DNA of 64,000 nt from Cytophaga sp. FL35 (GTDB taxonomy: Bacteria > Bacteroidota > Bacteroidia > Flavobacteriales > Flavobacteriaceae): contig NZ_JACSOH010000014.1 in assembly GCF_014349235.1 (NCBI RefSeq), positions 1 to 64,000 on the forward strand, written 5' to 3'. Under the pieces are notes generated by a model that saw nothing but the letters and a program-made list of their open reading frames with translations, was not told the origin of the DNA and did no database searches. Position numbers and translations under genes: made by a program. Each line of letters begins with the position of its first letter. Position 1 is the first letter of the stretch. Below, piece by piece: positions 1-18,110 of the stretch.

Positions 1-1
1 C

Positions 2-376
2 CATATCGGAAGGAAGATCAGCAGGATCAGAGAGCTAAGGGGAATGAAGCAGGAAACCTTGGCCGAACAGTTGGGCATCAGCCAACAGGCGGTATCCAAT
101 ATCGAGAACAGCGAAAAGGTGGAGGATTCGAAGTTGGGAGAGATAGCCAAGGCTTTGGGAGTCACCAAAGAGGGAATCCAACAATTCAATGAAGAGTCAA
201 TTTTCAATTATTTCAATAGCTTTCACGACAGCAGTGCTTTTAATACACACTGTACATTCAATCCACTGGATAAATTGATGGATGCTCATGAGGAGAACAA
301 AAAACTTTATGAACGTCTTGTTCAAGCGGAAAAGGATAAGGTTGCTTATCTAGAAAAACTTCTCGATAAAAAATAA
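2..376 (+). CDS. XRE-family helix-turn-helix regulator, 5' end cut by window edge
   Basis: A Cro/C1-type DNA-binding domain fills the first half. The first ATG in the window is at 44, but the reading frame is open back to position 2 and the upstream codons (GRKISRIRELRG) are the normal first helix of an XRE domain. The true start therefore lies at or before the window edge. The recognition helix region reads LGISQQAVSNIE. The C-terminal part is charged and probably coiled coil (residues EENKKLYERLVQAEKDKVAY), as in XRE proteins that dimerise. It lies in the mobile island and faces the ImmA/IrrE operon, but is not joined to it. The partner and target are unknown. The family call is secure, the function is not. 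Confidence 0.85.
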   Translation, partial: HIGRKISRIRELRGMKQETLAEQLGISQQAVSNIENSEKVEDSKLGEIAKALGVTKEGIQQFNEESIFNYFNSFHDSSAFNTHCTFNPLDKLMDAHEENKKLYERLVQAEKDKVAYLEKLLDKK

Positions 377-387
377 TTCCGCCTCGC

Positions 388-585
388 TCAGTAAATTAGT
401 TTCGGTAAGATTTGGGCTTGCAGCACTTCACTTCGTTTCGTTCGCTTATTTATTTTTACAGGAAATGTGAGCCGATTAAAACTTCTATTCGGCTCAAATA
501 AATGAATAAAATGATTTGAATGAGTTGTCATCATGGCTTGATTTGAAGATTGATCAATTTCTAAGCCATTAATATTCAATGTCAT
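388..585 (-). CDS. Small hypothetical ORF directly after the ImmA/IrrE gene
   Basis: A 65-aa frame whose ATG directly follows the TAA stop of the upstream protease gene, an arrangement that allows translational coupling. I do not recognise the product, which has no clear domain, signal or membrane segment. Against it, an 8-bp inverted repeat (468-475 with 489-496) sits inside the frame, and the C-terminal part is a low-complexity, basic stretch of the sort that intergenic flavobacterial sequence often encodes by chance. It may be an untranslated 3' region. Confidence 0.3.
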   Translation of the reverse strand: MTLNINGLEIDQSSNQAMMTTHSNHFIHLFEPNRSFNRLTFPVKINKRTKRSEVLQAQILPKLIY

Positions 586-1401
586 TTATTCTTCCCATAT
601 GATGCTTAGGGTATAATCTCCAACACATCGAGCATGCTCATAAAACTTCTCTATTGCCTGTTCCTCAGACTTTATATTAAACCAGTCCATGGCAAAAACT
701 TCTTCAGTAGTTTTTGGTGACCTGCCTAGTTCAAAGTATTCTCCCGCCACTGTATCTTCTGGGATTTTATCCTTCCCATATTTTAACCATTTGTACCTAA
801 AATCATATGAACTCCAATACCACTTTACTTTTCCTTTGAAACCACAGACTACTAAAATTGGATGATTTCCAATCGCACAGAACCTTAAAGCCGTAGCTGA
901 CAAACTTGTTCCAAATTTACTTGCAAGTTCTTCTATTATTCTGAACTGAAATTTTTTACTGTAATAAAAGGATTTAAATCGATTTTCAGGCATCAATAGA
1001 CATGAAGAAAAATAATCGGCTTGCCTTTCTGCTCGGTTCTTGCTAACGAAACCTGTAAATGAACCATGGCTTGGTGACTTGCCTGATGTAAGCGCAACCC
1101 TATGGCTATCTATGAAATAGTGTCCAAGTTCATGTCCGAAAGTAAATCTTGATCTCTTAGAATAAGCGTGACCCAGTTTATCAATATTAATGTAGATGTG
1201 AAATTTTCCATTAAAGTGTTCCAGTAAGCCATCATAAGAATCATCATAGTTACCATAACTAAAAGTTATTTGGTTTTTTGTTGCGATTACACTTGGATCA
1301 ATATGGCTCTCAGGGAAATAATAATCAGATATACTGCTTGCCAGCTCATTGATATTTATTACATCATCTCTTGTTAAAAATTCATTCGTTCTCTGCTGCA
1401 T
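586..1401 (-). CDS. ImmA/IrrE-family metallo-endopeptidase
   Basis: A 271-aa protein with the zinc-protease motif HELGH at residues 90-94. The downstream ERQADYFSSCLLMP block matches the third-ligand helix of ImmA/IrrE (COG2856) proteins. Family members such as Bacillus ImmA and Deinococcus IrrE cleave a repressor encoded beside them and so switch on a regulon. Here the two genes upstream in the same operon encode a sigma-70-family factor and an unknown 103-aa protein, and the start overlaps the preceding gene by 20 bp, so the three are probably co-translated. An attractive inference is that the protease controls the sigma factor or its small partner by cleavage. The target is not shown by sequence. 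Confidence 0.88.
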   Translation of the reverse strand: MQQRTNEFLTRDDVININELASSISDYYFPESHIDPSVIATKNQITFSYGNYDDSYDGLLEHFNGKFHIYINIDKLGHAYSKRSRFTFGHELGHYFIDSHRVALTSGKSPSHGSFTGFVSKNRAERQADYFSSCLLMPENRFKSFYYSKKFQFRIIEELASKFGTSLSATALRFCAIGNHPILVVCGFKGKVKWYWSSYDFRYKWLKYGKDKIPEDTVAGEYFELGRSPKTTEEVFAMDWFNIKSEEQAIEKFYEHARCVGDYTLSIIWEE

Positions 1402-1684
1402 TACGGTCTTTATTCATCCTTTCCCGGACTTCCTTTGTGATTTTCTTACCGTCCCTTGCTGCCATAGCAAGATTACCCGATGCATCTAACGGTGAATCCT
1501 TTTTAATGTCAATAACCTTATTGGATTTATACGCAATAATATCCTTTATGTCTGGCCATTTTGCAGGTGATTCATATTCCTTTTCAAACTTCTCTTCAAA
1601 TGCCTTTATTTCATCAGAAGTCTGGGGGATGGAATAACCGTACTTATTTAACAATTTTCCTATATCCTTCTTTTTTGATGGCAT
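1382..1684 (-). CDS. Small unknown protein between sigma factor and ImmA/IrrE protease
   Basis: About 100 aa, highly charged, with no membrane segment or signal. I recognise no family. The start may be the ATG at 1684 or a GTG at 1693 whose first bases overlap the TGA of the sigma gene. The end overlaps the protease gene by 20 bp, so the operon position is tight. The C-terminus is very basic and then acidic (DGKKITKEVRERMNKDRN). By position it is a candidate for the cleaved partner of the protease or for an anti-sigma protein, but that is inference from gene order only. Confidence 0.7.
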   Translation of the reverse strand: MPSKKKDIGKLLNKYGYSIPQTSDEIKAFEEKFEKEYESPAKWPDIKDIIAYKSNKVIDIKKDSPLDASGNLAMAARDGKKITKEVRERMNKDRNAAENE

Positions 1685-1689
1685 AATGC

Positions 1690-2328
1690 TCACTTTATTT
1701 TTAATTCCATCTTTTCTTTTATCTTTTTTTTGGCTCGACTTATTATTTGTCTAATATTAAGCCAAGTAGTCTCAAACTGTGATTCCATGAGGTTAATTAT
1801 GGAATCAGGCATATTCTTTCCTTCTTCATAGTATGAAAAGAACATTTTTATGATGTCCCTGTCTCGTTCTTTAAACTCCATTAGGCACTTGTCCACTAAA
1901 TTGTTTTTTAAAGGCATTTGGGTTTCCAATTCTTCATATTCCTCCTCCTCCAATTTCCAAAGCCAATCATTGTTCTCATCATCAACTTTAAGTTTTTCAT
2001 TTTTTCTGACTTCTGCAAAACCTCTTAACTGTTCAAGTCTCTTTAATCGAGCAACTACAGCTAAATATACTTTAAATCCATCTATTTGGGTTTTGTGGGT
2101 CTTTTGGTTATAAGACCATTTAGTTGGATTGTTCCAAACATAATTGAAAACATCACTTACCACGGTAGTAGCAATTTCTTCGCGTTGACGCACATAATCA
2201 ATGTTTTTTACAGTGATATTATATACAAACCTTCTGAATTCTTCGTACAAGGTACCTAATGCCAATTGTGCATCTTTAGGATTTTCATCTTTATCATCTA
2301 TTTGCAAGAGTAGAAATTCTATATCCAT
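1690..2328 (-). CDS. Sigma-70-family RNA polymerase sigma factor (accessory)
   Basis: About 212 aa. The N-terminal part (YEEFRRFVYNITVKN, then a helix with TTVVSDVFNYVW) looks like sigma region 2. The C-terminal part (ERDRDIIKMFFSYYEEGKN, then IRQIISRAKKKIKEKM) looks like region 4 with its helix-turn-helix. An acidic insert (DDENNDWLWKLEEEEYEEL) separates them. ATG 2328 is preferred over the GTG at 2334. It is the first gene of a three-gene operon with an unknown small protein and an ImmA/IrrE protease, diverging from the small gene at 2441. No known ECF group can be assigned by eye. The family call is good, the regulon is unknown. Confidence 0.75.
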   Translation of the reverse strand: MDIEFLLLQIDDKDENPKDAQLALGTLYEEFRRFVYNITVKNIDYVRQREEIATTVVSDVFNYVWNNPTKWSYNQKTHKTQIDGFKVYLAVVARLKRLEQLRGFAEVRKNEKLKVDDENNDWLWKLEEEEYEELETQMPLKNNLVDKCLMEFKERDRDIIKMFFSYYEEGKNMPDSIINLMESQFETTWLNIRQIISRAKKKIKEKMELKIK

Positions 2329-2440
2329 ACCCACCTATATATGTCAAAAGTGTTATAAAAAAATTCTGTCACGCTTTAATCATATGATTGTGTGGACCCA
2401 AAACCCACGTGACCTATTGTTTAATTTAAATATTGATGCC

Positions 2441-2617
2441 ATGGCAACAAATGGAAAGTCCGGAGACGGCAGGAGACACGGGGCGGTAAAAAATCGTTCC
2501 CAAGTACAAAACCCAAAAACAGGAATTTGGGTGAAGCGAGATTCAGAAACGGGGAGATTTATGGATGGTAAAACATCCAGCGACAAACCCTTTAAAGGAG
2601 TACGAAAAGAAAAATAA
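2441..2617 (+). CDS. Small conserved basic protein (58 aa)
   Basis: A 58-aa product with a glycine-rich N-terminus (NGKSGDGRRHG) and a patterned core (NPKTGIWVKRDSETGRFMD) ending in a lysine-rich tail. I recall very similar short proteins of unknown function, with the NPKTG-W-KRD-ETGRFMD pattern, in many Bacteroidota genomes, often in islands. The frame is open upstream of 2441, but ATG 2441 is the first sensible start and gives the expected protein. It lies 106 bp from the divergent sigma operon and just before the frameshifted gene at 2624, with which it may be co-transcribed. Function unknown. Confidence 0.75.
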   Translation: MATNGKSGDGRRHGAVKNRSQVQNPKTGIWVKRDSETGRFMDGKTSSDKPFKGVRKEK

Positions 2618-2623
2618 GTAGAC

Positions 2624-3867
2624 ATGAAAAAAAACTTTATCCAAGAAAACACTATCCTTTATCCGGAAAACACTTCGGGAAGAATCAAGGTTGAAAAGCT
2701 ATTAGGGTTATTAGATGAACATCCATACAAGAACGACCTGATAAAGAGTTTGAACATTGAACATATCATGGATGATTACATTACCATAGATTATGTTGAT
2801 ACAATCTATAGTGAAATCAAGAAAATACTTACTAAATATAAAGGTTTAACATTCTTGCGCAAACAAAACACATTGATGTTTTTGAAAAGAGTATAGATGG
2901 CGATGATGAGATTGTCTTCTTTTTTGAAGAATATGTTGAAGATGGAGTAGTTGGTAACAAGCTGGATGCAATTTCAATTTATGGAGCTAAAAACTCCTTT
3001 CTTGATGAGTATGTATTGACCAAGTATGCTAATAATCTTTTTAAAATTGGCCAGCCGGAATTAGCTCGTTACAACGTGCAATTTTTCAAAAGTTTGGCTT
3101 TAACTTCTGATGAATACAATAAAGAGAGGAATTACAGACTACTTTCTGATGGTGAAAATGTCTTTGTCCGTGGAATAGTCTCTACCCAACGGTATCATGA
3201 ATATGGAGTCGATTTTGCATTTGTTGTGGCCATGATAGTTTTGCATGAGAACATGAAGCAAAATAAAGGTGTTGAATATGAAATTAGAAGTGCGGCGCTT
3301 AATGAATCCAAATTGGATATGATAATTGCAGAAAAATATACCCATGAGGCGGGCTCTTTTGGATATGTGTCTACTGCAATAAAAGTTTCCACCAATGATC
3401 TTGGAAACGGATCTTTGAATTTCACGAATGTTTTACAGGTTTTGCAAAAGAATCAAAAAGGCATTTATCTTATACCAAGACGTGACACCATTTTCGAAAA
3501 TGACCCCTTAATTATTCCGCATAGTAAAAAGCCTGAAAACGTTTTTCCTTTGTTTAATGATATGGGATTCATTTTGAATACTTCAAAGGATTTTGTTCAA
3601 GAGCTTAAAAGTATTAAAACAATTAAAAATCCTGATGAACTTAGGGTGAAAATTCTTTTCAAATTGAACAATAGCCGAAGTTCTTTTAATGGCATCAAAA
3701 AACTATCAGATATTTTTAGCCGTAGGATTGATAATGAAATTAGCAACTTTACAAAACTCCTTGAAATGTGTAATAAAGCTGAAGAACTCAATCTGGAATA
3801 TGATTTGAAAGAAAAGCTTCGATATATTATATCTGATATTATATTATACGGCAAGGCAAGAGATTAG
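2624..3867 (+). pseudogene. Unknown soluble protein, about 413 aa, interrupted by a frameshift near 2855-2870
   Basis: Two frames make one apparent gene. The first (2624-2896) encodes 90 aa and ends TFLRKQNTLMFLKRV. The second is open from 2842 to 3867 in the -1 frame but has no ATG before its only start-like codon, TTG 3016. Read through, the upstream part of that frame (TKHIDVFEKSIDGDDE, then IVFFFEEYVEDGVVGNK) is good protein that follows naturally after ..LTKYKGLTFLRKQ. A one-base loss, or two-base gain, in the A/C-rich run around 2860-2870 explains this. I do not recognise the family. The C-terminal half is helical and charged (KLSDIFSRRIDNEISNF). The next gene, a membrane protein, is also frameshifted, which suggests a decayed pair or a local sequencing fault. 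Confidence 0.6.
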
Positions 3868-3985
3868 GATATTGAAAGGCTTCATTTTAAGAGTGGACTG
3901 AACATTATTTAAGATTAATTGATGGTTTTGTTATCTTCATTGACAGCCTTGAGTGCCAATCTGCTTACAACTAATCTTACTAGAA

Positions 3986-4640
3986 ATGACAGCAAATTTT
4001 ACGCTTCGAGATTTTTTAGTTTATTTTTCTTCAGGAGCTTTTTTCATAGTATCCTTTGATTTTCTTTGAGACAGTTCTGAAAATAACTGAGGATTTCTTC
4101 ACAAGACATAATTTCATTAAAGAGTTTTCTGGATTAATTATAATCCTAGCTGTTCCTTTGGTGTATATTGTAGGCCACTTGCTACATGGTATAGGTTTCC
4201 TGTCATTGCAAACATATAAAGTAATTCACTCTAATTTAGATAAATGGGGTTTGAGAAAGTTCAAGTTTGTTGAGTTAATATTGAGTATAACTCATCTCTT
4301 CATGTACAAAAATAAGGTTATTAATTCCGAAATTGAGGAAAACAAGAAAAACAAAACTTGGAATAGTCCTGAGGCCTTTTGGGAATCATGTGCGCTACTA
4401 CAAGTTCAAGGAACCTTTGGCCCAGCAAATTATTGGTATACAATAAATGATTTATTTAAGGGATTGTATACAACAACGCTTTTCGCTACAATAATTTGTC
4501 TAATCTGCAGTAAATTGGTTCTTGGCACCATTTTCTGTGGGTTAATGCTCATGTGCCAATTTCGAGCTATACAGTTTGCCAATAGTTTTGTTTTGACTGT
4601 AAGAAGATTAAGTAAATTTGAAGTAAAGACTCAACAATAA
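3986..4640 (+). pseudogene. Unknown multi-pass membrane protein, about 217 aa, apparent frameshift near 4056-4068
   Basis: From ATG 3986 the frame encodes MTANFTLRDFLVYFSSGAFF then IVSFDFL, a convincing first membrane helix, and stops at TGA 4067. The longer downstream frame has only a TTG start (4056) just after a stop, but continues smoothly as FFETVLKITEDFFTRHNF, a second helix around PLVYIVGHLLHGIG, and two close helices near the C-terminus (TTLFATIICLICSKLVLG and following). A +1 shift in the run gattttcttt joins the two into one protein with about four membrane segments. I do not recognise the family. Gene order (soluble protein, then a four-helix membrane protein, in an island) is reminiscent of two-gene defence modules. 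This is inference only. Confidence 0.6.
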
Positions 4641-4785
4641 ATAACAAGCTTTAATTGATAGTTCCAAATCGATAATTACAAGATTAATATGACATAGGGA
4701 TGCTTAGGCGCATATAAAATAGTGATTCAAAAATCCTTCTTAAGAACACATTAATACTTGAAAAATAATATTCAAAAAGAACAAT

Positions 4786-5019
4786 ATGCGTATATATAAA
4801 AAACATTTTTTGTTATTTAATAATGCGGGTGTTATTAATGCAACTACTCCTAAAAATTGGGCAAGAGCTCATCAAGATAGATTTCCAGATTATTCCTTTG
4901 TTGATGCCAAAAATACCCCTAGAACCAAGGAAATCGAAAAATTTCTTGAAGAAACCTTAAAGTTTAGAAGGGTTGAAAATGAAGAAATTGTAATTCTATA
5001 TCCCTACGATAACCTATAA
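4786..5019 (+). CDS. Hypothetical protein, 77 aa, last gene of the island
   Basis: A compact 77-aa protein with no signal or membrane segment, and a probable alpha/beta mix ending in an acidic strand (ENEEIVILYPYDNL). I do not recognise a family. It has a good ATG, protein-like composition, and a hairpin resembling a terminator 24 bp after its stop, all in favour of a real gene. It is the final gene before the tRNA 3'-end fragment at 5319. Confidence 0.6.
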   Translation: MRIYKKHFLLFNNAGVINATTPKNWARAHQDRFPDYSFVDAKNTPRTKEIEKFLEETLKFRRVENEEIVILYPYDNL

Positions 5020-5042
5020 TCTCTAATAAAAATCTAGAACAA

Positions 5043-5063
5043 TCCTACATTCCTCATGTAGGA
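5043..5063 (+). terminator. Hairpin after the 77-aa gene
   Basis: An 8-bp perfect inverted repeat (TCCTACAT / ATGTAGGA) with a 5-nt loop, followed by ATTTTCT. The stem is modest and the T-run imperfect, so terminator function is plausible but not certain. Confidence 0.45.
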
Positions 5064-5318
5064 ATTTTCTACAGATATATCAATTTCATACTTCCAAAAT
5101 GGTGTAAAAGAACTACTTCCATTATCCGGTCATGAAAATGTAAATTTATGACTGAAAGCACTTTATGTAATTAATATTGAAATCAAAACCCTATTGCGTA
5201 TCAAAATCTATCGTTTTTAATGTTAAATGGTTAAAATTTGTTAAAAGGTGAGCAATTCGGTTCCTCTCAAAAATGCCCCTCTGTGAGACCTTGAAAAATG
5301 GGATATTTCAACAAAAAA

Positions 5319-5338
5319 TTCGAGTCCCGTCCAGACCG
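5319..5338 (+). other. tRNA 3'-end fragment (probably tRNA-Asp): presumed attachment site
   Basis: The 20 bases read as T-loop (TTCGAGT), 3' T-stem (CCCGT), 3' acceptor strand (CCAGACC) and a G discriminator. The bases just upstream (CAACAAAAAA) cannot pair with the T-stem, and no D-arm, anticodon arm or 5' acceptor is present. It is therefore only the 3' end of a tRNA, the usual remnant left at the far end of an element integrated into a tRNA gene. From memory, flavobacterial tRNA-Asp ends with this T-arm and a close acceptor with G73. The intact tRNA should lie outside the window, upstream of position 1. Confidence 0.7.
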
Positions 5339-5341
5339 CAA

Positions 5342-5369
5342 AAGCCTCAACGAAAGTTGAGGCTTTTTT
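5342..5369 (+). terminator. Strong intrinsic terminator of the original tRNA gene
   Basis: A 10-bp perfect stem AAGCCTCAAC / GTTGAGGCTT with a GAAA tetraloop, followed by a T-run. It lies 3 bp after the tRNA fragment, as expected for the terminator of the tRNA gene now displaced by the island. Confidence 0.85.
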
Positions 5370-5456
5370 GGTTTTCATTACTACCCTTTTCTAGACAAAA
5401 TGTTCCATCTAATGGTAATGAATATGTAGGCCGATTAAAATCCTAAATAAGAGTCG

Positions 5457-5464
5457 TAAATTTG
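5457..5464 (+). promoter_or_regulatory. Bacteroidota -7 box (TAAATTTG) for the RluA-type gene
   Basis: A perfect match to TAnnTTTG, 56 bp upstream of the chosen start at 5520. No clear TTG -33 element is seen at the usual distance, so this is a one-element match. Confidence 0.45.
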
Positions 5465-5519
5465 CAAGACTAATAAAATCAAGCTTAGACTCGAAATCAA
5501 ATTCTAAAATAGTCAGTTA

Positions 5520-7184
5520 TTGGCAGCCCTTTCACATTCAAAAAAGCCCAAATTAGTTGATCTCAAAACAATAAGAGACTTTCAAATTCCAGAAAGTTTC
5601 GAATACCCACATTTCTATAGGCCCGCGCCTGTGGCGCAAGAAGCGGCACGCGACCTTCAAAAGAGATTAAAGTTGGAATTGCCTGAGCTAGAGAACCTAT
5701 CAAAAGGTAGAATGCTTGGTGTTTTGGTAGTTCAAACAAAAGAGGGAGCATTTGGATATCTTTCAGCCTATTCCGGGGAGTTGCAAGCCGAATTGGAAAT
5801 TATGCCTTTTGTACCTCCGGTTTATCAACTGCCAAAAGGGGAGAATTTTCCTAAAATGGCACAAATAAATTCCATAGGTAAGGAGGTGCATACCTTGGAA
5901 TCAAGTGAAGGATACATTAGCGCTAAAATTGAACTTCAACAAATTCTCAAAGAAACGGAGGTAAATATTCTCGAGGCTAAAAAAAAGGCTAAGATTGCTA
6001 AGGAAAAACGAGATGAATTAAGAATAGAAGCTGCTGGTCTTCCTGAAAATGAGCGTAGAAATCAGCTTGACCAGCTAAACCTAGAAGGTGCACACCATGG
6101 AATGGATTTAAGGAGGTACATCCGGTCTGAAAACCTTAAATTGGAAAAGGCGAAAGAGGTAGTTCGGGAGATTGAAAAACATATTAACGCGTTAAAGGTC
6201 CTTAGAAGGGAAAAATCCGCGGAGTTGCAGGAAGTAATTTTCCAATCCTTTGTGTTCATGAATAAATTAGGGGAACGAAAGAACGCTATGGAAGTATTCA
6301 ATGATTTTGGGGTTGAGGTTCCACCGGCAGGAGCAGGGGAGTGCGCCGCACCTAAATTGTTTCAATATGCATTTAAGCATTCAATGACTCCTATTGCCCT
6401 TGCGGAGTTTTGGTGGGGGGCATCTCCCAATTCTGAAATTAGGGAGCATGGAAAATTCTATCCGGCCTGTAAAAGAAAATGTCAACCCATCTTGGATCAC
6501 ATGCTAAAAGGCATGCAGGTAAAACCAAATCCCTTATTGGAGAATTTTGGGGAAGGTAAAGATTTGGAGGTATTATTTGAAGACGAGCACTTGGTCGTAG
6601 TCAATAAGCCCTCGGGAATGTTGTCTGTTTCCGGCAGATATATCAAAGACTCGGTCCAGACTCGTGTGCAACAGCGTTACCCAAAAGCTACGGGGCCAAT
6701 GATTGTTCACAGGTTAGATCAGGACACTTCCGGGGTAATGGTTGTGGCGCTCAATAAAGTTTCCCATAAACGGCTGCAGCAACAATTTTTAGAGCGAAGT
6801 ATTCAAAAGACCTATATGGCAATTCTCGAAAAGCCAATTCATAAATCCAAAGGAGTAATCAAGCTTCCCCTTATTTTGGATATTAACAATCGCCCCATGC
6901 AAATGGTTAGTTATAAGCATGGGAAACCGGCTTTAACCCATTACGAAGTAATGGAGGAATCAGCTTTAAGAACCCTAATAAGGTTGAAACCCATAACGGG
7001 GCGTTCCCACCAACTAAGGGTTCATTGCGCGCACAAATTAGGATTGCATGCACCAATTGTTGGGGATAATTTATATGGAACTCCTGAAAAGAGACTTTGT
7101 TTACATGCACAACAGATAAAGTTCTCGCATCCAATAACAGGACAAACTTTACATATTAAAACCGACCTGCCTTTCTCCCTGTGA
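5520..7184 (+). CDS. RluA-family RNA pseudouridine synthase with long N-terminal extension
   Basis: The C-terminal third (about residues 350-554) is an RluA-type pseudouridine synthase that converts uridine to pseudouridine in rRNA or tRNA. It has a clear catalytic block HRLDQDTSG with the nucleophile Asp, and a terminal LHAQQIKFSHP motif. The first 330 residues are the extension found in roughly 550-aa members of this family (GRMLGVLVVQTKEGAFGYLS), followed by a long charged coiled-coil region. The start is TTG 5520. The only in-frame ATG (5712) would delete conserved extension sequence, and an in-frame stop lies at 5505, so TTG is preferred. Exact target RNA cannot be told from sequence. 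It stands alone just outside the island junction. Confidence 0.9.
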   Translation: MAALSHSKKPKLVDLKTIRDFQIPESFEYPHFYRPAPVAQEAARDLQKRLKLELPELENLSKGRMLGVLVVQTKEGAFGYLSAYSGELQAELEIMPFVPPVYQLPKGENFPKMAQINSIGKEVHTLESSEGYISAKIELQQILKETEVNILEAKKKAKIAKEKRDELRIEAAGLPENERRNQLDQLNLEGAHHGMDLRRYIRSENLKLEKAKEVVREIEKHINALKVLRREKSAELQEVIFQSFVFMNKLGERKNAMEVFNDFGVEVPPAGAGECAAPKLFQYAFKHSMTPIALAEFWWGASPNSEIREHGKFYPACKRKCQPILDHMLKGMQVKPNPLLENFGEGKDLEVLFEDEHLVVVNKPSGMLSVSGRYIKDSVQTRVQQRYPKATGPMIVHRLDQDTSGVMVVALNKVSHKRLQQQFLERSIQKTYMAILEKPIHKSKGVIKLPLILDINNRPMQMVSYKHGKPALTHYEVMEESALRTLIRLKPITGRSHQLRVHCAHKLGLHAPIVGDNLYGTPEKRLCLHAQQIKFSHPITGQTLHIKTDLPFSL

Positions 7185-7307
7185 GAGTAACTGATGAAAG
7201 AAGGGTAAATGCGTAGGTCACTTACTCAATTTATGAAATCTTACTCTATGGCGTATCTAATATGAGCTAAATACAGCTTTTTTATTTTAAGTGTAAAATA
7301 AACACCT

Positions 7308-7315
7308 TATATTTG
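7308..7315 (+). promoter_or_regulatory. Bacteroidota -7 box (TATATTTG) before the GH43 gene
   Basis: A perfect TAnnTTTG match that would start transcription near 7322. It overlaps the first possible start codon of the GH43 frame (TTG 7313) and therefore argues for the ATG at 7340 instead. Confidence 0.5.
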
Positions 7316-7339
7316 GTTGCTTATATTAATCAATTTATT

Positions 7340-9520
7340 ATGTATCCTTACCTCATTCTGCCAAGTTCACAAAAAGGAGCTTTTGCTAAGTCAATTCTTT
7401 GCTCACTTTTACTATTGTTTCTTTTTAACGGTTGTAGCTTTTCTTCAAATGAAACATATACCAACTATCTCTTTACCTATTTTGTGGGTAATGGAGAGGG
7501 AGAAGAAGCGGTACATTATGCTATTAGTCCAGATGGTTATCATTACTATGCGCTAAATAATAACATGCCTATTTTGGATAGTCATAAAATTAGTGTGACC
7601 GGTGGGGTAAGGGATCCCCATATTTTACGAGGTGAGGATGGTACTTATTATATGGTTTTGACGGATTTGCTATCTAAAAATGGTTGGACCAATACAGCTA
7701 TGATTCTATTGACTTCAAAAGATTTGATTTCATGGACATCTACCGTAATTGATATACCTGAAGCGTACCCGGAAAAATTTGGGAATGTAAACAGGGTTTG
7801 GGCTCCCCAGACCATATATGACAAGGAGAAAGACAAGTATATGGTTTACTTTTCAATGTTGGAACCGGGGAGTTATGACAAAATATATTATGCCTATGCC
7901 AATGCAGATTTTAATGGCTTGGAAGCTGCCCCCGAGCAGCTTTTCTACAGTCCAAATGAAAAGGCCAATATTGATGGTGATATCATTTATAATAATGGAA
8001 AATATCATCTCTTTTATAAAACGGAGGGTACCACGGATAAAGGTATAAAAGTAGCCATCTCAGACAGTTTGACCGGTGGGTATAAGGCGTTGGAGGGTAA
8101 CGTTGATCAAACAGATGAGGCCGTTGAAGGGTCGGGAGTTTTCAAGTTAATTGATGGTGATGAATACATTCTAATGTATGATATGTACATGAGCGGTACC
8201 TATCAATTTACCAAAAGCGCCGATCTCAAGAATTTTGAAGTGGTAGATGAAGAAGTTTATATGAATTTTCATCCGCGTCATGGAACGGTTCTTCCAATTA
8301 CCCAAGAAGAGACAGAACGTCTATTACATAGTTTTCCGTCTAAAGATTTACCGTCCATATTGTCAGTCCGGTCCCCACAGGCCAAGCCCATCAATCTAGA
8401 AATCAATAAAAAGGATAAAGAAATTTACATTCCTGTAGAGGAGGGTACAGACATTTCTAATTTTGACCCTCAATTTAAAATGTTTCCGGGTACGGAAATG
8501 CTGCCTGCTGGAGCTCAAGATTTTAGTGGATCCCCAGTTTCTTATGTATTACATACCCTAAATGGAAAAGAAGAAAATTATAAGGTAAATGTCCAAATAG
8601 CGAATAATCCCGTTTTAAAGGGGTATTATGCAGATCCAGAAATTATTTATTCAGAAAAAAACCAAAAATATTATTTGTACCCTACAAGTGACGGTTTTAC
8701 TGGTTGGTCCGGTACTTACTTCAAAACGTTTAGCTCCAAGAATCTAGTTCACTGGGAAGATGAGGGAACTATCTTGGATTTGAAAAAGGACGTTTCTTGG
8801 GCCAATAGAAATGCTTGGGCCCCCACCATGGTAGAGACAAAAATTGACGGCAACTATACATATTTTTATTACTTCACTGCAGCCCAGAAAATAGGGGTAG
8901 CCTACAGCAATGAACCTACGGGGCCCTTTAAGGATTCCGGCTCGGCCTTAATTGATTTTAAGCCTGACGGTATAACCGGTGGCCAAGAAATTGATCCGGA
9001 TGTTTTTATCGATCCCAAGACTGGTACGCCTTATTTATATTGGGGAAATGGTTATTTGGCCGTGGCTGAATTAAATCCTGATATGCTTTCCATTAAAAAA
9101 GAAACCGTAAAGGTCTTAACTCCAGACGATACATTTAGGGAGGGTGCAGAAATTATCTATAGAAATGGAACCTATTATTTTCTATGGTCTCAAGATGATA
9201 CCAGAAGTCCTGATTATAGGGTTCGGTACGCAAAGGCAAAATCACCCTTAGGACCCTTGGAAATTCCTGAAAATAATTTAGTAATTAAACGAGATGATAA
9301 GTTAGGTATCTATGGTACGGGCCATAACTCCGTAATACAAGTCCCTGATAGTGATGAATGGTATCTGGTATACCATCGGTTTAATAGGCCCAAGGGTATT
9401 ACAATGGGAGATGCCGCAGGGTATAATAGGGAGGTTTGTATAGATAAGCTAACTTTTGACTCCAATGGGAACATAAATGAAGCCCAACCCACCTTAGATG
9501 GCATAGACCCGCTTAGGTAA
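7340..9520 (+). CDS. Tandem two-domain GH43 glycoside hydrolase, lipoprotein
   Basis: About 726 aa with a hydrophobic leader ending in a lipobox (LFNGC), so exported and lipid-anchored. Two five-bladed beta-propeller domains of glycoside hydrolase family 43 follow. The first starts near VTGGVRDPHILR and carries DGDIIY and EGSGVFK. The second starts near GYYADPEIIY and carries IDPDVFID and EGAEIIY. These correspond to the Asp base, Asp modulator and Glu acid of the family. A short strand-rich linker (about residues 340-420) separates them. GH43 enzymes cut arabinan, xylan or galactan side chains; substrate is not predictable here. It has no SusC/SusD neighbours, so it is not part of a typical polysaccharide utilisation locus. 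Confidence 0.88.
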   Translation: MYPYLILPSSQKGAFAKSILCSLLLLFLFNGCSFSSNETYTNYLFTYFVGNGEGEEAVHYAISPDGYHYYALNNNMPILDSHKISVTGGVRDPHILRGEDGTYYMVLTDLLSKNGWTNTAMILLTSKDLISWTSTVIDIPEAYPEKFGNVNRVWAPQTIYDKEKDKYMVYFSMLEPGSYDKIYYAYANADFNGLEAAPEQLFYSPNEKANIDGDIIYNNGKYHLFYKTEGTTDKGIKVAISDSLTGGYKALEGNVDQTDEAVEGSGVFKLIDGDEYILMYDMYMSGTYQFTKSADLKNFEVVDEEVYMNFHPRHGTVLPITQEETERLLHSFPSKDLPSILSVRSPQAKPINLEINKKDKEIYIPVEEGTDISNFDPQFKMFPGTEMLPAGAQDFSGSPVSYVLHTLNGKEENYKVNVQIANNPVLKGYYADPEIIYSEKNQKYYLYPTSDGFTGWSGTYFKTFSSKNLVHWEDEGTILDLKKDVSWANRNAWAPTMVETKIDGNYTYFYYFTAAQKIGVAYSNEPTGPFKDSGSALIDFKPDGITGGQEIDPDVFIDPKTGTPYLYWGNGYLAVAELNPDMLSIKKETVKVLTPDDTFREGAEIIYRNGTYYFLWSQDDTRSPDYRVRYAKAKSPLGPLEIPENNLVIKRDDKLGIYGTGHNSVIQVPDSDEWYLVYHRFNRPKGITMGDAAGYNREVCIDKLTFDSNGNINEAQPTLDGIDPLR

Positions 9521-9553
9521 AAAAGGCTTTTAAAGCCTAGAGATGGCCTTATA

Positions 9554-9569
9554 TTACCCATACGGGTAA
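9554..9569. promoter_or_regulatory. Palindrome TTACCC-N4-GGGTAA, possible activator site
   Basis: A perfect 6+6 inverted repeat about 95 bp upstream of the -24 element of the kinase/regulator operon, a normal distance for an NtrC-type enhancer site. Its outer form TTAC...GTAA recurs at 12257-12273, before the second sigma-54-like promoter. The role as binding site of the regulator at 10793 is inference. Confidence 0.35.
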
Positions 9570-9609
9570 AAACTATCCGTTATACAATTTCTTTAGATGT
9601 TATATTTTG

Positions 9610-9620
9610 CTGAAATTCAG
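9610..9620. promoter_or_regulatory. Palindrome CTGAAATTCAG
   Basis: A perfect 11-bp palindrome about 35 bp upstream of the -24/-12 promoter of the kinase operon. It could be a second regulator site, but short AT-rich palindromes are common by chance. Confidence 0.2.
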
Positions 9621-9654
9621 TGAGATATAATGAATGTTTCTTTCTCAGATTTCA

Positions 9655-9669
9655 AGGCATGGCCCTTGC
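9655..9669 (+). promoter_or_regulatory. Sigma-54 (-24/-12) promoter for the kinase/NtrC operon
   Basis: The sequence AGGCATGGCCCTTGC fits the sigma-54 consensus TGGCACG-N4-TTGC, with the essential GG and GC dinucleotides at exact spacing and two mismatches. Transcription would begin near 9681, 36 bp before ATG 9717. Since the operon encodes an NtrC-type sigma-54 activator, autoregulation is likely. Confidence 0.7.
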
Positions 9670-9716
9670 TCTTCTTTCTTTTGCAATATTTCAAGCCAGC
9701 GATTTAGAAAGGTCAT

Positions 9717-10793
9717 ATGAATATTACCCAAGAGGCATTAAAGGAAAGAATTAAGGAGCTTACCTGTTTATATGAGGTTTCCTCTTTTATAGTCAATGCT
9801 TCGAAAGAGAATTTAGATGAAGTGTTAAGAGCCATTGCTTTTAGTGTAAAACGAGGCTTCCATCACCCAAATAAAACCCAGGTCGCTATAAACGTTTCCG
9901 GGATGAAAATTATTACCGGTAAAAGTATAGGGAACTGTAGCTTAAGCTCCCATATTCTGGTTTTTAACAAGAAGGAGGGGCATATAAAGGTAACCGTTCA
10001 AGATTTTGAATTAGGTTTTCTTGTGGAGGAACAGGCCCTCCTAGATAGTATCGCCCTAAAATTGGGTAACCTTCTTGAAAAATTACAAATACAGGAAAAT
10101 GAACGTTCCCTTAGAAGGCAAATGGAACGGGCAAGTAGGTTAGCTATTTTAGGGGAAATTACTGCAGGAATTGCACATGAATTAAATACTCCTTTGGCCA
10201 ATATTTTAGGGTACGCAGAACTTTTAAAGTCAGATTTGCAAGACTGTAATATGGGTATCCAAGACGTTGATAGAATCATCCAAAGCTCCATATTTACACG
10301 GGAGGTAGTAAAAAAACTCATGTTCTTTGCTTGCGAAATGCCTCAGGAAATGAACGAGGTCAATATTGTTCCTCATGTTAAAGGAGCAATGGACCTTTTG
10401 GATAATTCCTTTAAAAAAGAGGAAGTTAAGTATAAGTTGGTAATGGATAAGGAGAAGATTTGCTTAAAAGCAGATATCATACAGCTTACCCAAATCATTT
10501 TTAACCTGATGATCAATGCGCTCTATTTTTCACCAAAGAAGGGCTTGGTCCTGTTGGAAGTCCTGGATGGCAATAGCGGGATAACCATAAGAGTTTCTGA
10601 TGAGGGACCGGGGTTGTCAGAAAAAGCATTGGATAAAGTTTTTGAACCCTTTTTTACAACAAAACCTATTGGTGAAGGTTCAGGGTTGGGGCTTAGCGTG
10701 GTTCATGGTATTGTTGCCAGCCATAAAGGAACTATTGAGGCCGATAACGGAAAGAAAAGTGGAGCGATTTTCACGGTAAAAATACCTAAGTAA
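9717..10793 (+). CDS. Sensor histidine kinase, partner of the NtrC-type regulator
   Basis: A 358-aa cytoplasmic kinase with no membrane segment. Residues 1-120 form a GAF-like sensory region, followed by a short coiled coil. HisKA has the phospho-accepting His in GIAHELNTPLANILGY (H154). The HATPase domain has N (MINALYF), G1 (DEGPGLS) and G2 (GEGSGLGLSVVHG) boxes. It autophosphorylates and passes the phosphate to the response regulator encoded next, whose ATG overlaps its TAA stop. A sigma-54-type promoter precedes it. The signal is unknown; the soluble GAF-like input suggests a cytoplasmic cue. Confidence 0.93.
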   Translation: MNITQEALKERIKELTCLYEVSSFIVNASKENLDEVLRAIAFSVKRGFHHPNKTQVAINVSGMKIITGKSIGNCSLSSHILVFNKKEGHIKVTVQDFELGFLVEEQALLDSIALKLGNLLEKLQIQENERSLRRQMERASRLAILGEITAGIAHELNTPLANILGYAELLKSDLQDCNMGIQDVDRIIQSSIFTREVVKKLMFFACEMPQEMNEVNIVPHVKGAMDLLDNSFKKEEVKYKLVMDKEKICLKADIIQLTQIIFNLMINALYFSPKKGLVLLEVLDGNSGITIRVSDEGPGLSEKALDKVFEPFFTTKPIGEGSGLGLSVVHGIVASHKGTIEADNGKKSGAIFTVKIPK

Positions 10794-12133
10794 TGGAATT
10801 ACGAAAAGAGAACGTACTTATAGTTGATGATGATATTGGTATATTAGAATTGTTGCAAAGGCATTTGCTGTCATGGAACCTCCATTGTTACAAGGCCATT
10901 TCCGTTAAGGAAGCGGTAGCTATTCTGCGTGATGCAAAAATTGATTTGCTTATTACAGATTTAAAAATGCCCCATGTAGATGGCTTTGAACTTATCAAAT
11001 TTGTATCTGAACATTATCCTCAAATACCAAAGTTGGTCATTACGGGATATCCCTCTGTTCAGGGTTCCCTTCAATCCATTAAATCGGGGGTAGCAGACTA
11101 CCTTACCAAACCTTTTACCAAACAGGAGTTGGCGCAGGCCATAGAAAAATCTATTGGTGGCTTGGAAGAAAACGTTCAACAAAAGGAAAGGGGAACATTA
11201 CCACAGAATTATAACCAACCTAAACCCTACAAGGAAATTGTTGGAAAGTCCGATGCGATTAAAAAAGTTTTTCAGCTAATGGATCGTGTTAAGGATAATA
11301 AGGCAACGGTTTTAATTAATGGGGAAAGTGGTACAGGAAAAGAACTGGTGGCTCAAGGAATACATTTCGGGGGAAAGTTTTCAAGGGCGCCGTTCATTCC
11401 TGTCAATTGTGGGGCTATACCTGAGAATTTATTGGAATCGGAACTATTCGGTTATGTAAAAGGAGCTTTTACCGGAGCGGATACCACGAGAGATGGCTAT
11501 TTTCAGGCAGCCAATGGAGGTACACTCTTTTTAGATGAAATAGGGAGTGCTTCCTTGGCAGTACAGACCAGATTGTTACGAGTTTTGCAGGAAAAGGAAG
11601 TAGTTAAAGTAGGCTCTAGAAAACCTGAAAAGATTGAGGTTCGGGTCATAGCTGCCACCAATGAAGAACTCGCCAAGTTAATTGAAGCAAAAAGATTTAG
11701 GGAGGATCTGTACTACAGGTTAACCGTTGTGGAAATTGAAATGCCACCCTTAAGAAAAAGGATAGGGGATATTCCACTTTTGGTAGACCGCTTTTTATTC
11801 AAATATGGAATGGAATACCGTAACGGTTTTGTCAAAATAGATGATGAAGCCCTGGGAGTGCTTAAAAGATACAGCTGGCCGGGAAACGTCCGGGAACTAG
11901 AGAATGTAGTACAGAGAGCGGTAATTATGGGAGATGGTAGCTTGGGACTAGGGCATTTACCGGACACTATTAAATATCAAATAGATTTTCCAGATGAGGA
12001 TTTAATGCCTTTAAAGGAAGTGGAAAAGAGATACATTCAAAAAGTGTTGAATCGTATGGAAAATAACAAGACCAAGGCGGCTGAAATTTTGGGCATCACT
12101 AGAAAAACCCTTAGAAAAAAACTGGTAGATTAA
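10793..12133 (+). CDS. NtrC-family sigma-54-dependent response regulator
   Basis: A 446-aa activator of the usual three parts. The receiver (1-120) has the phospho-Asp at residue 56 in LLITDLKMP. The AAA+ ATPase has Walker A GESGTGKE (177-184), the sigma-54-contacting loop GAFTGA (224-229) and Walker B TLFLDEI. A Fis-type helix-turn-helix (NKTKAAEILGITRKTLRKKL) ends the protein. The GAFTGA loop is intact, so it should remodel sigma-54 holoenzyme. It is translationally coupled to its kinase. Two sigma-54-like promoters nearby (9655 and 12307) make its own operon and the following stress operon probable targets. Confidence 0.95.
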   Translation: MELRKENVLIVDDDIGILELLQRHLLSWNLHCYKAISVKEAVAILRDAKIDLLITDLKMPHVDGFELIKFVSEHYPQIPKLVITGYPSVQGSLQSIKSGVADYLTKPFTKQELAQAIEKSIGGLEENVQQKERGTLPQNYNQPKPYKEIVGKSDAIKKVFQLMDRVKDNKATVLINGESGTGKELVAQGIHFGGKFSRAPFIPVNCGAIPENLLESELFGYVKGAFTGADTTRDGYFQAANGGTLFLDEIGSASLAVQTRLLRVLQEKEVVKVGSRKPEKIEVRVIAATNEELAKLIEAKRFREDLYYRLTVVEIEMPPLRKRIGDIPLLVDRFLFKYGMEYRNGFVKIDDEALGVLKRYSWPGNVRELENVVQRAVIMGDGSLGLGHLPDTIKYQIDFPDEDLMPLKEVEKRYIQKVLNRMENNKTKAAEILGITRKTLRKKLVD

Positions 12134-12256
12134 TTTCTAGAGAGACAGTGTTTTCCGTTTCAGAGGGTGCCATTATTTAAATAAGATACAAAATACCCAG
12201 CTGGGTCTTTAGGTTCCACTCTTATTAATTTCTTTTCAATTACGGAACAATGTAAG

Positions 12257-12273
12257 TTACTGTAATATAGTAA
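12257..12273. promoter_or_regulatory. Palindrome TTACT-N7-AGTAA, possible activator site
   Basis: An inverted repeat about 43 bp upstream of the -24 element at 12307. It shares the TTAC...GTAA ends with the palindrome at 9554-9569, so both may be bound by the NtrC-type regulator. Suggestive only; the region is AT-rich. Confidence 0.35.
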
Positions 12274-12306
12274 ATTATGTTTGTATTAAATGGATGCTGG
12301 TATTAC

Positions 12307-12321
12307 TGGCATAGCTATTGT
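12307..12321 (+). promoter_or_regulatory. Putative sigma-54 (-24/-12) promoter for the stress-protein operon
   Basis: TGGCATAGCTATTGT matches the consensus TGGCACG-N4-TTGC in the TGGCA block and the TTG with exact spacing. The final C of TTGC is T here, so it is weaker than the site at 9655. Transcription would begin near 12333, 55 bp before the ATG at 12388. It lies directly after the gene for a sigma-54 activator. Confidence 0.55.
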
Positions 12322-12387
12322 CTTTTAGTAGGAACCATCATTTTCCAGGGTTAAAATTATCTTTTTAAAGCGATAACAATACGGCAT

Positions 12388-12807
12388 ATGAAATACGAAA
12401 GACTGATTATAGAGAAGAAAGAATATGTGATGCTCAAACGTCTTTTAAACGTTTCGGGACATACCGGAGATGAAAGCATAAAAACTTCCATTATTAAATT
12501 AAGTGCTGAGTTAACAGATGCAAAAATTATTGACAACCATGAGATACCTTCAGATGTTGTTCGGTTTAATAGTAACGTAACTATCTCCTCTTCTGAGGGG
12601 TGGGAGCGTACCATTCAATTGGTAATGCCCTCTGAAAGAAATTTCAAAGAAGGAAAAATATCGGTACTTACTCCTATGGGAGCGGCCCTATTTGGGTATG
12701 CTTCAGGAGATGAGGTAGAATGGCAATTTCCGTCTGGATTTAAAAAAATAAAAATTAAGCAGGTAGAACAGGAGCCGTATTATAATAGCTTGGATGTGTC
12801 CATTTAA
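12388..12807 (+). CDS. GreA/GreB C-terminal-domain protein (Rnk-like)
   Basis: A 139-aa protein. The C-terminal 60 residues (ISVLTPMGAALFGYASGDEVEW followed by FPSG) are the FKBP-like GreA/GreB C-terminal domain. The N-terminal part is short and lacks the long acidic-tipped coiled coil of true GreA, as in Rnk and related proteins that bind RNA polymerase without cleaving backtracked RNA. It heads a small operon with an unknown protein, a universal stress protein and a 37-aa membrane peptide, behind a sigma-54-like promoter. A role in adjusting transcription in stress or low-energy states fits the context, by inference. Confidence 0.8.
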   Translation: MKYERLIIEKKEYVMLKRLLNVSGHTGDESIKTSIIKLSAELTDAKIIDNHEIPSDVVRFNSNVTISSSEGWERTIQLVMPSERNFKEGKISVLTPMGAALFGYASGDEVEWQFPSGFKKIKIKQVEQEPYYNSLDVSI

Positions 12808-12817
12808 ATTCAAGGGT

Positions 12818-13225
12818 ATGAAAAATGAATATTTGGAAATATATCATCATGATAGCGATAGAACAGTGACCCACAAGTTAAATTCATTAGAATTACGAGG
12901 CTGGATAACTAATTTAAAATATGTACAAAAGGAATTAGGAAGCCTATTAGACATCTGTTCAAATGAAATAAGAAGTAAGCTAAAGGATAGTGATCTTTTT
13001 GTAAAATTTGACAAGAAAAAGGAGGAGAACGCCAGAATTCTGGAAATACTCACCCGTTACTCCCATTCAAGGTCGTCTATAACGGAGTGCGATGAAATGG
13101 AATGTGATATGGCTTACATTAAAGAACATGAAATGTACAGAAAAAGCTATCACTACCACGTAGATAAGTATAGAATGCTAAAGGAAGAGTTCTTTGCTAA
13201 AATGAGGAACAAGCTGGTAGGGTGA
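12818..13225 (+). CDS. Hypothetical helical protein in the stress operon
   Basis: About 135 aa, rich in charged helices, with no signal or membrane segment. I recognise no family. An ATG at 12794 is also possible, but it would overlap the preceding gene; ATG 12818 (MKNEYLEIYHHD) is preferred. Several His, Cys and Glu residues occur (ECDEMECDMAYIKEHEMY), which might bind a metal, but no standard motif is present. It lies between the Rnk-like gene and the universal stress protein and is probably co-expressed with them. Confidence 0.6.
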   Translation: MKNEYLEIYHHDSDRTVTHKLNSLELRGWITNLKYVQKELGSLLDICSNEIRSKLKDSDLFVKFDKKKEENARILEILTRYSHSRSSITECDEMECDMAYIKEHEMYRKSYHYHVDKYRMLKEEFFAKMRNKLVG

Positions 13226-13284
13226 CCAATCGTACCAAAAAGTATAGATCAAGTCAATTATTAACTAACATAAAAAGTGAACTT

Positions 13285-14130
13285 ATGAGTAAGAAGGTTT
13301 TAGTACCCGTGCATCATTTAAAGGAATCTGTAAAGGCGTTGGAATACCTTTCAAATCTTTTTGCCAGACAGGAGTGTACGTTCTACTTGCTCCACACCTA
13401 TAGTTATAAAATGACCGGCCTTGATTCCCTTCAACTATTACATGAAGACGAAGCATTCTTTGCAAAACCCAAAGAGGCTTCGGAAAATCTTATTTTAAGT
13501 ATCAAAGCAAGGTTTGCAAGTGCCCACCTGAATAATAGACATACTTACAAGGCTGTGTCTGAATGCTCCAACTTAATATCTTCTATTAACAGGAATGTTT
13601 CGAAATTTCAAATAGATATTGTTGCGGTATCCATGCAAGCTATTCAAAAAGGGCTATATAGCTTTTATAATTCCAAAACCAAAAGTATCCTGGAAAAGGT
13701 TCGTAGTTGCCCTGTAATGGTGTTGCCGTCTACGGTAGTACCCTCTAAGAGGAGTAAAATAGTATTCGCCTCTAATTTTACAGAACCTATGGGGCAAGGG
13801 GAGTTGGTACAACTGATCAATATTTTTGGGAACACCAATATAGATTTTAAAATTGTTCAAGTTGGAGATGAAAATTTTCTAACTGATGAGCAAATAGAGA
13901 ATAGGGATACTTTGAAGGTTAGTCTATACGGTATTTCAAAATCCCCTGTTAAGGAAGTATTTGTAAACTCTCTTGATAGCCTTAAAGGTTACGGTCATGA
14001 ACATGCCAAAAGTATTATATGTCTGTTAGACCGTAAGCCTTCATTTTTACGAAGATTAGGCTTTGCCAAATCTCCTATCACAACATTAGGCCCCATTAGT
14101 AAAATTCCTTTGATAGCCTTGCATGTATGA
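13285..14130 (+). CDS. Tandem universal stress protein (UspA family)
   Basis: About 281 aa with two Usp-like halves. The N-terminal half begins in the normal way (MSKKVLVPVHHLKESVKAL) and contains KFQIDIVAVSMQ and SCPVMVLPS, which close the first alpha/beta domain. The second half (SKIVFASNFTEPMGQGEL onward) is more divergent. The frame is open upstream to a GTG at 13222, but ATG 13285 gives the standard Usp start. The ATP-binding GxxG signature is not clear in either half. Its TGA stop overlaps the ATG of the following 37-aa peptide. Usp proteins support survival under starvation, oxygen or energy stress. Confidence 0.82.
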   Translation: MSKKVLVPVHHLKESVKALEYLSNLFARQECTFYLLHTYSYKMTGLDSLQLLHEDEAFFAKPKEASENLILSIKARFASAHLNNRHTYKAVSECSNLISSINRNVSKFQIDIVAVSMQAIQKGLYSFYNSKTKSILEKVRSCPVMVLPSTVVPSKRSKIVFASNFTEPMGQGELVQLINIFGNTNIDFKIVQVGDENFLTDEQIENRDTLKVSLYGISKSPVKEVFVNSLDSLKGYGHEHAKSIICLLDRKPSFLRRLGFAKSPITTLGPISKIPLIALHV

Positions 14131-14240
14131 GACACAATAAGAAAAAGGATTTTACATTTAAACTTACGCTCATCGTTATTGGTATTATAATAGCAGTGGT
14201 ATTATGTTTATTGGTGCCCGCTCCCATTTTTGCGAATTAA
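14127..14240 (+). CDS. 37-aa single-span membrane peptide
   Basis: A short frame starting ATGA on the stop codon of the universal stress protein gene. The product has a charged N-terminus (MRHNKKKDFTFK), one strong membrane helix (LTLIVIGIIIAVVLCLLV) and a short PAPIFAN tail. Coupled position and ideal membrane-peptide layout make it a likely real gene that usual length cut-offs would miss. No family is recognised. Small single-span peptides often act as subunits or modulators of membrane complexes. That role is inference. Confidence 0.6.
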   Translation: MRHNKKKDFTFKLTLIVIGIIIAVVLCLLVPAPIFAN

Positions 14241-14267
14241 TAACTATTAGGGCTGTTTCCTGTTCTT

Positions 14268-14630: not shown

Positions 14631-14862
14631 GGGTTACTAATGCTATATCTTACTTATTAGGAAAGACCAAGTCCACCATTGTAAGGGATCCCCCAATCCT
14701 CTTAGTGGTAGACCGGTCTTATGCTGTTATTGCACTACTTTTAATAGGAATGCTTATTTTGTAAAGCTTTACTGTTTTCGGTTTGTTGGGTAAACCTAAG
14801 GAGATAAGAATTCAAAACTTTACGGATTTCTGTAAGGCGGTAAAAAATCTTTGAAAAGAGAT

Positions 14863-15528: not shown

Positions 15529-15538
15529 ATGGAAGGTG

Positions 15539-17524: not shown

Positions 17525-17602
17525 AAAAATGGACTAAGGAAATTTTGGCTAAAGCTAGTTGAGACCTATTTTAGTAATAAAATTAGAAGTAATGCAAATA
17601 AA

Positions 17603-17629
17603 TTAAATAATTGAAAATAAGTTATTTAA
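17603..17629. repeat. AT-only inverted repeat upstream of ssb
   Basis: A perfect 8-bp repeat TTAAATAA / TTATTTAA with an 11-nt spacer in the 235-bp gap between the divergent kinase and ssb genes. It may be an operator or a chance feature of AT-rich DNA. Confidence 0.3.
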
Positions 17630-18092: not shown

Positions 18093-18110
18093 TTGCGGAA
18101 TTTAAATTGG

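Follow-up and report, generated by a model that had tools for sequence, protein, structure and literature searches.

What does the 3′ end of a tRNA mark when it stands alone in front of an intact terminator? We analysed a 64,000-nt stretch of Cytophaga sp. FL35 (NZ_JACSOH010000014.1, positions 1 to 64,000; our contig C14, G000:C14:1-64000), called the window throughout. An earlier reading of its letters alone, here the original prediction, had taken positions 1–5338 for the right end of an island integrated at a tRNA-Asp-like gene. Window 1–5339 is almost certainly the attR-side end of an island that a tyrosine recombinase integrated into the 3′ half of tRNA-Asp in this Euzebyella-like flavobacterium. 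The island itself is of an ordinary, textbook kind; what sets it apart is a hairpin found family-wide behind the tRNA at the other end.

A tRNA-Asp fragment and a stranded terminator

Window positions 5319–5339 read TTCGAGTCCCGTCCAGACCGC and comprise the T-loop, the 3′ T-stem strand, the 3′ acceptor strand and the discriminator of a tRNA, plus one C, which makes the remnant one base longer than predicted (5319–5338). The sequence occurs once in the window, and none of 100 shuffles held a match at up to three mismatches. ARAGORN detected no tRNA anywhere in the window and an Rfam scan of it returned nothing at the gathering score; the 5′ part of the tRNA is therefore missing, as foreseen. Directly downstream, where the tRNA's own terminator had been placed, lies a terminator-like stem of 12 pairs (−18.0 kcal/mol, z −5.4). 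The features of this end are as follows.

5319–5339, plus strand: attR core, the tRNA-Asp 3′ end left by integration (core match, complete tRNA on contig C35, shuffle control, other attR sites)
5340–5367, plus strand: native tRNA-Asp terminator, stranded beyond the island (fold; similar terminators, by eye, after intact tRNA-Asp at L013, L018 and L019)
5230–5293, plus strand: attR arm region conserved in the element family (alignment with four other tRNA-Asp islands; GTTAAAAGGTGAGC the same in all five)
5254–5270, plus strand: direct repeat shared with the left end (C35:18504–18520), probable integrase arm-type site (two places in the genome at up to one mismatch)

The complete tRNA and the integrase lie on contig C35

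The original prediction had looked for the other end, with integrase and complete tRNA, to the left of the window. Since base 1 of the window is also base 1 of contig C14, that end must be on another contig; the position left of the window failed, the contig ending there, and the end itself was found on C35. Across the whole genome (4.84 Mb, 81 contigs) the core recurs at a single further site, C35:18374–18394, the 3′ end of a complete tRNA-Asp(GTC), so that the two sites share 21 bases. This is the only full-length tRNA-Asp of the genome among the matches listed (E to ~1.6e-5). Downstream of it is a tyrosine recombinase with Arm-DNA-bind_5, Phage_int_SAM_5 and Phage_integrase domains, all over the Pfam cut-offs; the 411-residue stretch used as query begins 252 nt past the tRNA, and the longest open reading frame (ORF) starts 72 nt earlier. 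Arm-DNA-bind, SAM-like and Phage_integrase domains together are what we take to define recombinases of the IntDOT/IntN1 type, and the C35 integrase has all three.

The arm repeat AATTCGGTKCCTCTCAA (up to one mismatch) occurs genome-wide only at window 5254–5270 and C35:18504–18520. The attL on C35 thus carries the complete tRNA-Asp, an element-borne hairpin, arm repeats and the integrase, and the 21-nt core and the arm repeat are common to both ends. This is the arrangement of a tRNA island: a complete tRNA with an adjoining integrase on one side, and a second copy of the tRNA's 3′ end on the far side. A small perfect inverted repeat, TTGGAATATTTCCAA, lies right behind the attL tRNA end on C35 (L002:1522–1536), ahead of the main hairpin; it is present also at L100 and L101.

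The flanks are colinear with a sister species whose site holds another island

Euzebyella saccharophila 7SM30 matches our sequence colinearly on both sides: the left flank on C35 at 93–94% as far as L004:2403, a few bases beyond the tRNA, and window 5319–19083 at 90%. Positions 1–5318 had no match in any of five related loci compared. This is the synteny that had been anticipated, with 1–5318 outside the colinear part. Two outcomes had been named as speaking against the prediction, the lack of a tRNA with this 3′ end and shared core sequence at 1–5318, and neither arose.

In E. saccharophila a complete tRNA-Asp and a 47-nt 3′ fragment lie 28.7 kb apart (L053–L055, G001:C8:1002469–1031243). The DNA between them has no DNA match to our island; by eye, its translations include a nosZ cluster, ABC exporters, relaxase-like genes and a broken integrase. 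With the same flanks and dissimilar content, these are two different islands at one tRNA-Asp, so E. saccharophila shows the same flanks without this DNA, at a site that another island occupies. The E. saccharophila island carries its own terminator-like stem (L053:7555–7578), and its att core starts in the anticodon arm.

The first gene beyond the stranded terminator bears on how far the right flank is shared.

5520–7184, plus strand: RluA-type pseudouridine synthase, first flanking gene outside the island (PseudoU_synth_2, E 6.2e-35; 88% identical neighbour at the same E. saccharophila site)

At E<=1e-60 this gene was matched in 9 of the 60 genomes examined, our own included. The congener G002 has the left flank in common at 72–76% and gave no match to the RluA-like gene at that threshold. 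The earlier statement that core genes begin to the right thus holds at genus level at most. The RluA-like gene loci of nine named relatives contain no tRNA-Asp (eight hold 8 kb upstream, L046 almost none). Because no empty site can be named and G002 has no RluA-like match, the synteny rests on E. saccharophila. The predicted order of a tRNA directly before the terminator was seen by eye in at least three relatives (L013, L018 and L019, among 30 loci), where a terminator resembling 5340–5367 directly follows an intact tRNA-Asp.

Related integrases sit behind tRNA and tmRNA genes

We collected 48 integrase loci, 20 and then 28 further, one genome each within each set; more than 100 further listed places were left out. 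A complete, codirectional tRNA or tmRNA lies 212–299 nt before the integrase in 43 of them (Ser 16, Asp 13, Pro 7, tmRNA 3, Arg 2, Lys 1, Ala 1). At L083, L104 and L106 the integrase stands behind a truncated tRNA 3′ end, and at L081 and L084 no tRNA was seen. Integrases at least 54% identical to ours were at tRNA-Asp in all 15 listed loci, our own included, with 13 complete tRNAs and 2 truncated ones.

A same-core attR was found 11–15 kb from the tRNA for G225 (one mismatch), G392, G365 and G127 (L140); these four islands represent three other genera, as G225 and G392 share one. All five islands, the window included, can be aligned over about 100 bp in front of the attR core. L138, L139 and L141–L144 showed no attR within 20 kb or less, and L145 and L146 (truncated tRNA) were left out. 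By eye, a terminator follows the attR fragment in G392, G365 and G127, whereas G225 has a second family-type hairpin there instead (L128:14672). The truncated tRNA ends in front of the integrases at L104 and L106 begin in the anticodon arm. At L104, L106 and G225, elements appear to have accreted in tandem at tRNA-Asp.

A blastp comparison of five islands (E<=1e-5, ORFs of 70 aa or more, the first 15 kb for G213) showed only the integrase (5/5) and a Fic protein (4/5) to be shared. Fic/DUF4172 genes occurred in 6 of 13 other tRNA-Asp regions, of which one was only 3.2 kb long and four were 40–60 kb, and in none of 11 regions of 20 kb each at other sites. We did not adopt Fic as a fixed integrase partner, since it is enriched but not constant. 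In our own island the gene is at L004:4297–5424, and it is also found at L140, L141, L145, L128, L134 and L136.

A covarying hairpin follows the restored tRNA

At most of the 43 attL sites the tRNA is followed by AAAANCCTGTAAA-loop-TTTACAGGNTTTT or a varied form of it. With a score threshold of 28, which we set ourselves, the best hairpin in the first 110 nt qualified at 39 of 43 loci; the following 110 nt gave one at 8 of 43, and none of 215 shuffles, which keep base composition only, did so. L076 and L085 reach the threshold through hairpins placed elsewhere. As a plain sequence pattern with up to three changes, the hairpin was present at 32 of the 43. Among 31 tRNA-Asp sites in our genome and relatives (30 loci) the pattern was found only at our own island; it misses a similar hairpin at L031, and a looser arm pattern occurs also at L019 and L031.

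We then aligned 41 of these regions, L108 and L111 (0.9 and 0.98 alike others) having been dropped beforehand. For a 9-pair stem, 91.2% of cells were paired, seven of the nine pairs changed on both sides, and 55 cells carried double changes. We rely on the double changes and the slid controls, because taking the helix from one of the rows (L066, the first) biases the share of paired cells. The covariation score was 0.422, compared with 0.149 after shuffling, a comparison that related sequences can inflate, and with at most 0.120 in the slid controls. At least eight of the nine pairs form in 35 rows; 34 of these have five or more T in the next 8 bases, and in 34 the stem is 26–27 nt from the tRNA end. 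The exceptions are L076 (7/9 pairs), L079, L080, L082 and L085, and MAFFT misplaces L110, whose hairpin is plain before alignment. When folded against shuffles, the element hairpin region gave z −5.2 and the native terminator z −5.4. The hairpin and its T-run probably replace, as a terminator, the displaced one now stranded at 5340–5367. Among the open-access literature matches listed we recognised no earlier description of a replacement terminator of this kind.

A plausible course of events can be put together from these sequences. Recombination by the integrase would join a circular element to tRNA-Asp at their common core, and the element would supply a new 3′ end so that the tRNA stays whole. 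The old 3′ end and its terminator would be pushed to the far side (5319–5367). As the displaced terminator could no longer serve the tRNA, the element would bring its own hairpin with a T-run, which, 26–27 nt behind the tRNA, most likely stops transcription of the tRNA ahead of the integrase gene.

Island size and a second island of the same family

Contig C35 breaks off within the final bases of a HEPN-type gene (Pfam HEPN, E 6.6e-5) that is complete on C53 and partial on C37, and C14 starts inside an XRE gene, the divergent partner of the HEPN gene as arranged on C37. We infer that the HEPN partner of the window's XRE gene lies in the assembly gap. The missing stretch would be ~1.1 kb, as 972 bp are taken as on C53 and 172 bp as on C37. 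Joined across the HEPN/XRE pair, the island would extend from C35:18395 to window 5339, or 13.2 + 1.1 + 5.3 = ~19.7 kb.

The genome has a second island of the same family, with a tRNA-Lys and integrase on C37 (L093:15007–18595) and its attR on C10 (L180). The tRNA-Lys 3′ fragment is at C10:158574–158594, where the same arm repeat and a terminator-like hairpin were seen, both by eye. Matching by core assigns each of the two attL contigs to one of the two attR contigs, which supports the simple join. C53 (L092) is a 4.6-kb contig with the HEPN gene and a tyrosine recombinase of a different type (Phage_int_SAM_4), and is possibly part of one island.

Cargo genes

The window part of the island contains the following genes.

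2–376, plus strand: XRE/HTH gene cut by the contig start, part of the XRE + HEPN pair (Pfam HTH_3, E 1.2e-12; copies on C37, 79%, and C17, 65%)
586–1401, minus strand: CapP-like metallopeptidase of ImmA/IrrE type (PADLOC capP, E 7.5e-61; Pfam Peptidase_M78, E 7.3e-11)
1382–1693, minus strand: CapH-like small protein, overlapping capP (PADLOC capH, E 1e-6; no Pfam match)
1690–2334, minus strand: ECF-sigma-like protein (NCBIfam sigma-factor models, best E 5.6e-7, all under cut-offs; no Pfam match)
2624–2896, 3016–3867, 4056–4640 and 4786–5019, plus strand: four ORFs without a Pfam or NCBIfam match

The ImmA/IrrE gene and the sigma factor expected to the left of the tRNA end are thus present in type, the former by its PADLOC and Pfam matches, the latter by weak matches under cut-off; a PDB search with the sigma-like protein gave insignificant matches only. 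The sigma-like, CapH-like and CapP-like genes form one overlapping run (window 586–2334), possibly a protease-controlled switch. The capP + capH pair is present, and the products of 1690–2334, 3016–3867 and 4056–4640, scanned alongside, include no recognised defence effector.

The left arm on C35 carries Fic/DUF4172, an MBOAT protein and a protein with weak GDSL and beta-propeller matches. It also holds a His-Xaa-Ser radical-SAM system with HxsC, HxsB and HxsD, all over the NCBIfam cut-offs; an HxsA-like protein scores 28.4 bits against a cut-off of 121.65, with the His-Xaa-Ser run visible. HxsB and HxsC putatively mature the His-Xaa-Ser motif, according to the part of the literature cited (PMC9062424). 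The Hxs genes (L004:9719–13314, minus strand) lie beside the MBOAT gene and a carbamoyltransferase (Pfam Carbam_trans_N and _C; its best NCBIfam name, NodU, falls far short of the cut-off). HxsB over the cut-off was found in 2 of 299 family genomes, our own and G031; the 20 kb read at the G031 locus contain no tRNA. Pfam scans of 18 island proteins (10 from C35 and 8 from the window, with the ~1.1-kb gap unseen) detected no relaxase or type IV secretion gene, nor any virion structural or packaging gene; the latter statement covers Pfam only, PHROGs not having been run.

Comparison with known systems

IntN1 of NBU1 and IntDOT of CTnDOT, both from Bacteroides, are tyrosine recombinases with arm-binding, SAM-like and catalytic domains and have arm-type sites beside the core. 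NBU1 and CTnDOT are mobilizable or conjugative elements, whereas the scans of our island's proteins showed no relaxase or transfer gene. In the Flavobacteriaceae, where the bacterium is listed, the 10K genomic island of Riemerella anatipestifer is linked to tRNA-Arg, has an IntN1-like integrase domain and direct-repeat att sites, and was shown experimentally to integrate and excise, in the sections cited of a report that also mentions NBU1 IntN1 (PMC6764341). Our island is likewise tRNA-linked with direct-repeat att sites. By our reading of these sections, the 53-bp att repeat of the Riemerella island itself holds a terminator-like stem-loop; in our island, by contrast, the crossover is inside the tRNA and the element hairpin differs from the native terminator (PMC6764341).

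As far as the cited sections go, ICEKp1 of Klebsiella displaces the tRNA terminator, its int is driven by the tRNA promoter, and stem-loops in the int leader are a potential attenuator (PMC13023037). Like our island, it has the integrase codirectional behind the tRNA, stem-loops in the int leader and the native terminator at the far end. Where ICEKp1 has int driven by the tRNA promoter, our element has a covarying hairpin and T-run 26–27 nt behind the tRNA, and our island differs further in having no conjugation genes among the proteins scanned. The E. coli prophage KplE1, of the 'STI' arrangement, shares the tRNA-then-integrase orientation; its int promoter is expected to overlap attL, and the passages cited describe no conserved hairpin (PMC2951348).

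Alternative explanations

Several findings weigh against the picture of one simple island with a replacement terminator. No sequence bridges C35 and C14, and both C53 and the second island (C37/C10) share gap sequence, so the interior may be longer or rearranged. A truly empty site with both flanks was not found, E. saccharophila being occupied and G002 lacking the right flank beside tRNA-Asp. The nearest relative, G213 (integrase 87%), showed no attR within 60 kb. The full hairpin is absent in 5 of the 41 aligned attL regions (four tRNA-Pro, one tRNA-Arg), and RNAalifold on the whole alignment gave only four of the pairs (−0.92 kcal/mol).

Only 21 nt are common with the tRNA, and the fragment might be a chance match or a stray pseudogene in ordinary chromosome; we regard this as extremely improbable, since such a match is not expected by chance (0/100 shuffles), colinearity with the sister species begins only at 5319, and the arm region aligns with the attR of four other islands. 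A second reading, unlikely too but far less so, denies that C35 and C14 close one simple island. A composite or tandem interior, or an exchange of ends with the tRNA-Lys island by recombination at the XRE/HEPN repeat, would fit the repeat parts on C35, C37, C53 and C14 and the tandem elements at tRNA-Asp in relatives (L104, L106, G225). Each island, however, has its own matching att pair (Asp on C35/C14, Lys on C37/C10), and in E. saccharophila one island lies between the flanks of the Asp site.

The conserved hairpin itself allows two other readings. Its location between the core and the arm repeats, and three inner A-T pairs that hardly vary, would suit a palindrome bound by the integrase or by an excision factor; the outer pairs, however, show matched changes in both strands ahead of a T-run, the pattern that an RNA structure should give, and we hold the binding site to be rather improbable. 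A somewhat better chance, still well short of even, goes to an ICEKp1-like arrangement: while integrated, the element would have its integrase transcribed from the tRNA promoter, and the hairpin would only attenuate that transcript. The tRNA and integrase are codirectional and 212–299 nt apart in 43 of 48 loci, and the cited ICEKp1 sections describe a displaced tRNA terminator, use of the tRNA promoter and terminator-like stem-loops before int (PMC13023037). Against attenuation stands a hairpin nearly fixed just behind the tRNA whose region folds about as strongly against shuffles as the native terminator (z −5.2 vs −5.4), which suggests that stopping would be strong.

Implications

On balance we favour the view that a tRNA/tmRNA-targeting integrase lineage in this family and order evolved an attP with a built-in replacement terminator, nearly fixed 26–27 nt behind the restored tRNA and kept by compensatory change across Asp, Ser, Lys, Arg, Ala, tmRNA and some Pro sites. 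It would protect the target gene, here the only full-length tRNA-Asp among the matches listed, and keep tRNA transcription away from the integrase, the opposite of what ICEKp1 does. The island is now known with both ends, flanks and relatives, and the hairpin and arm motif could serve as a sequence signature for the attL of such islands in draft genomes. The hairpin also makes the fate of tRNA transcription, once an island displaces the terminator, a testable question. If it is a terminator, tRNA islands would differ in strategy, some harnessing the tRNA promoter and others shutting it off.

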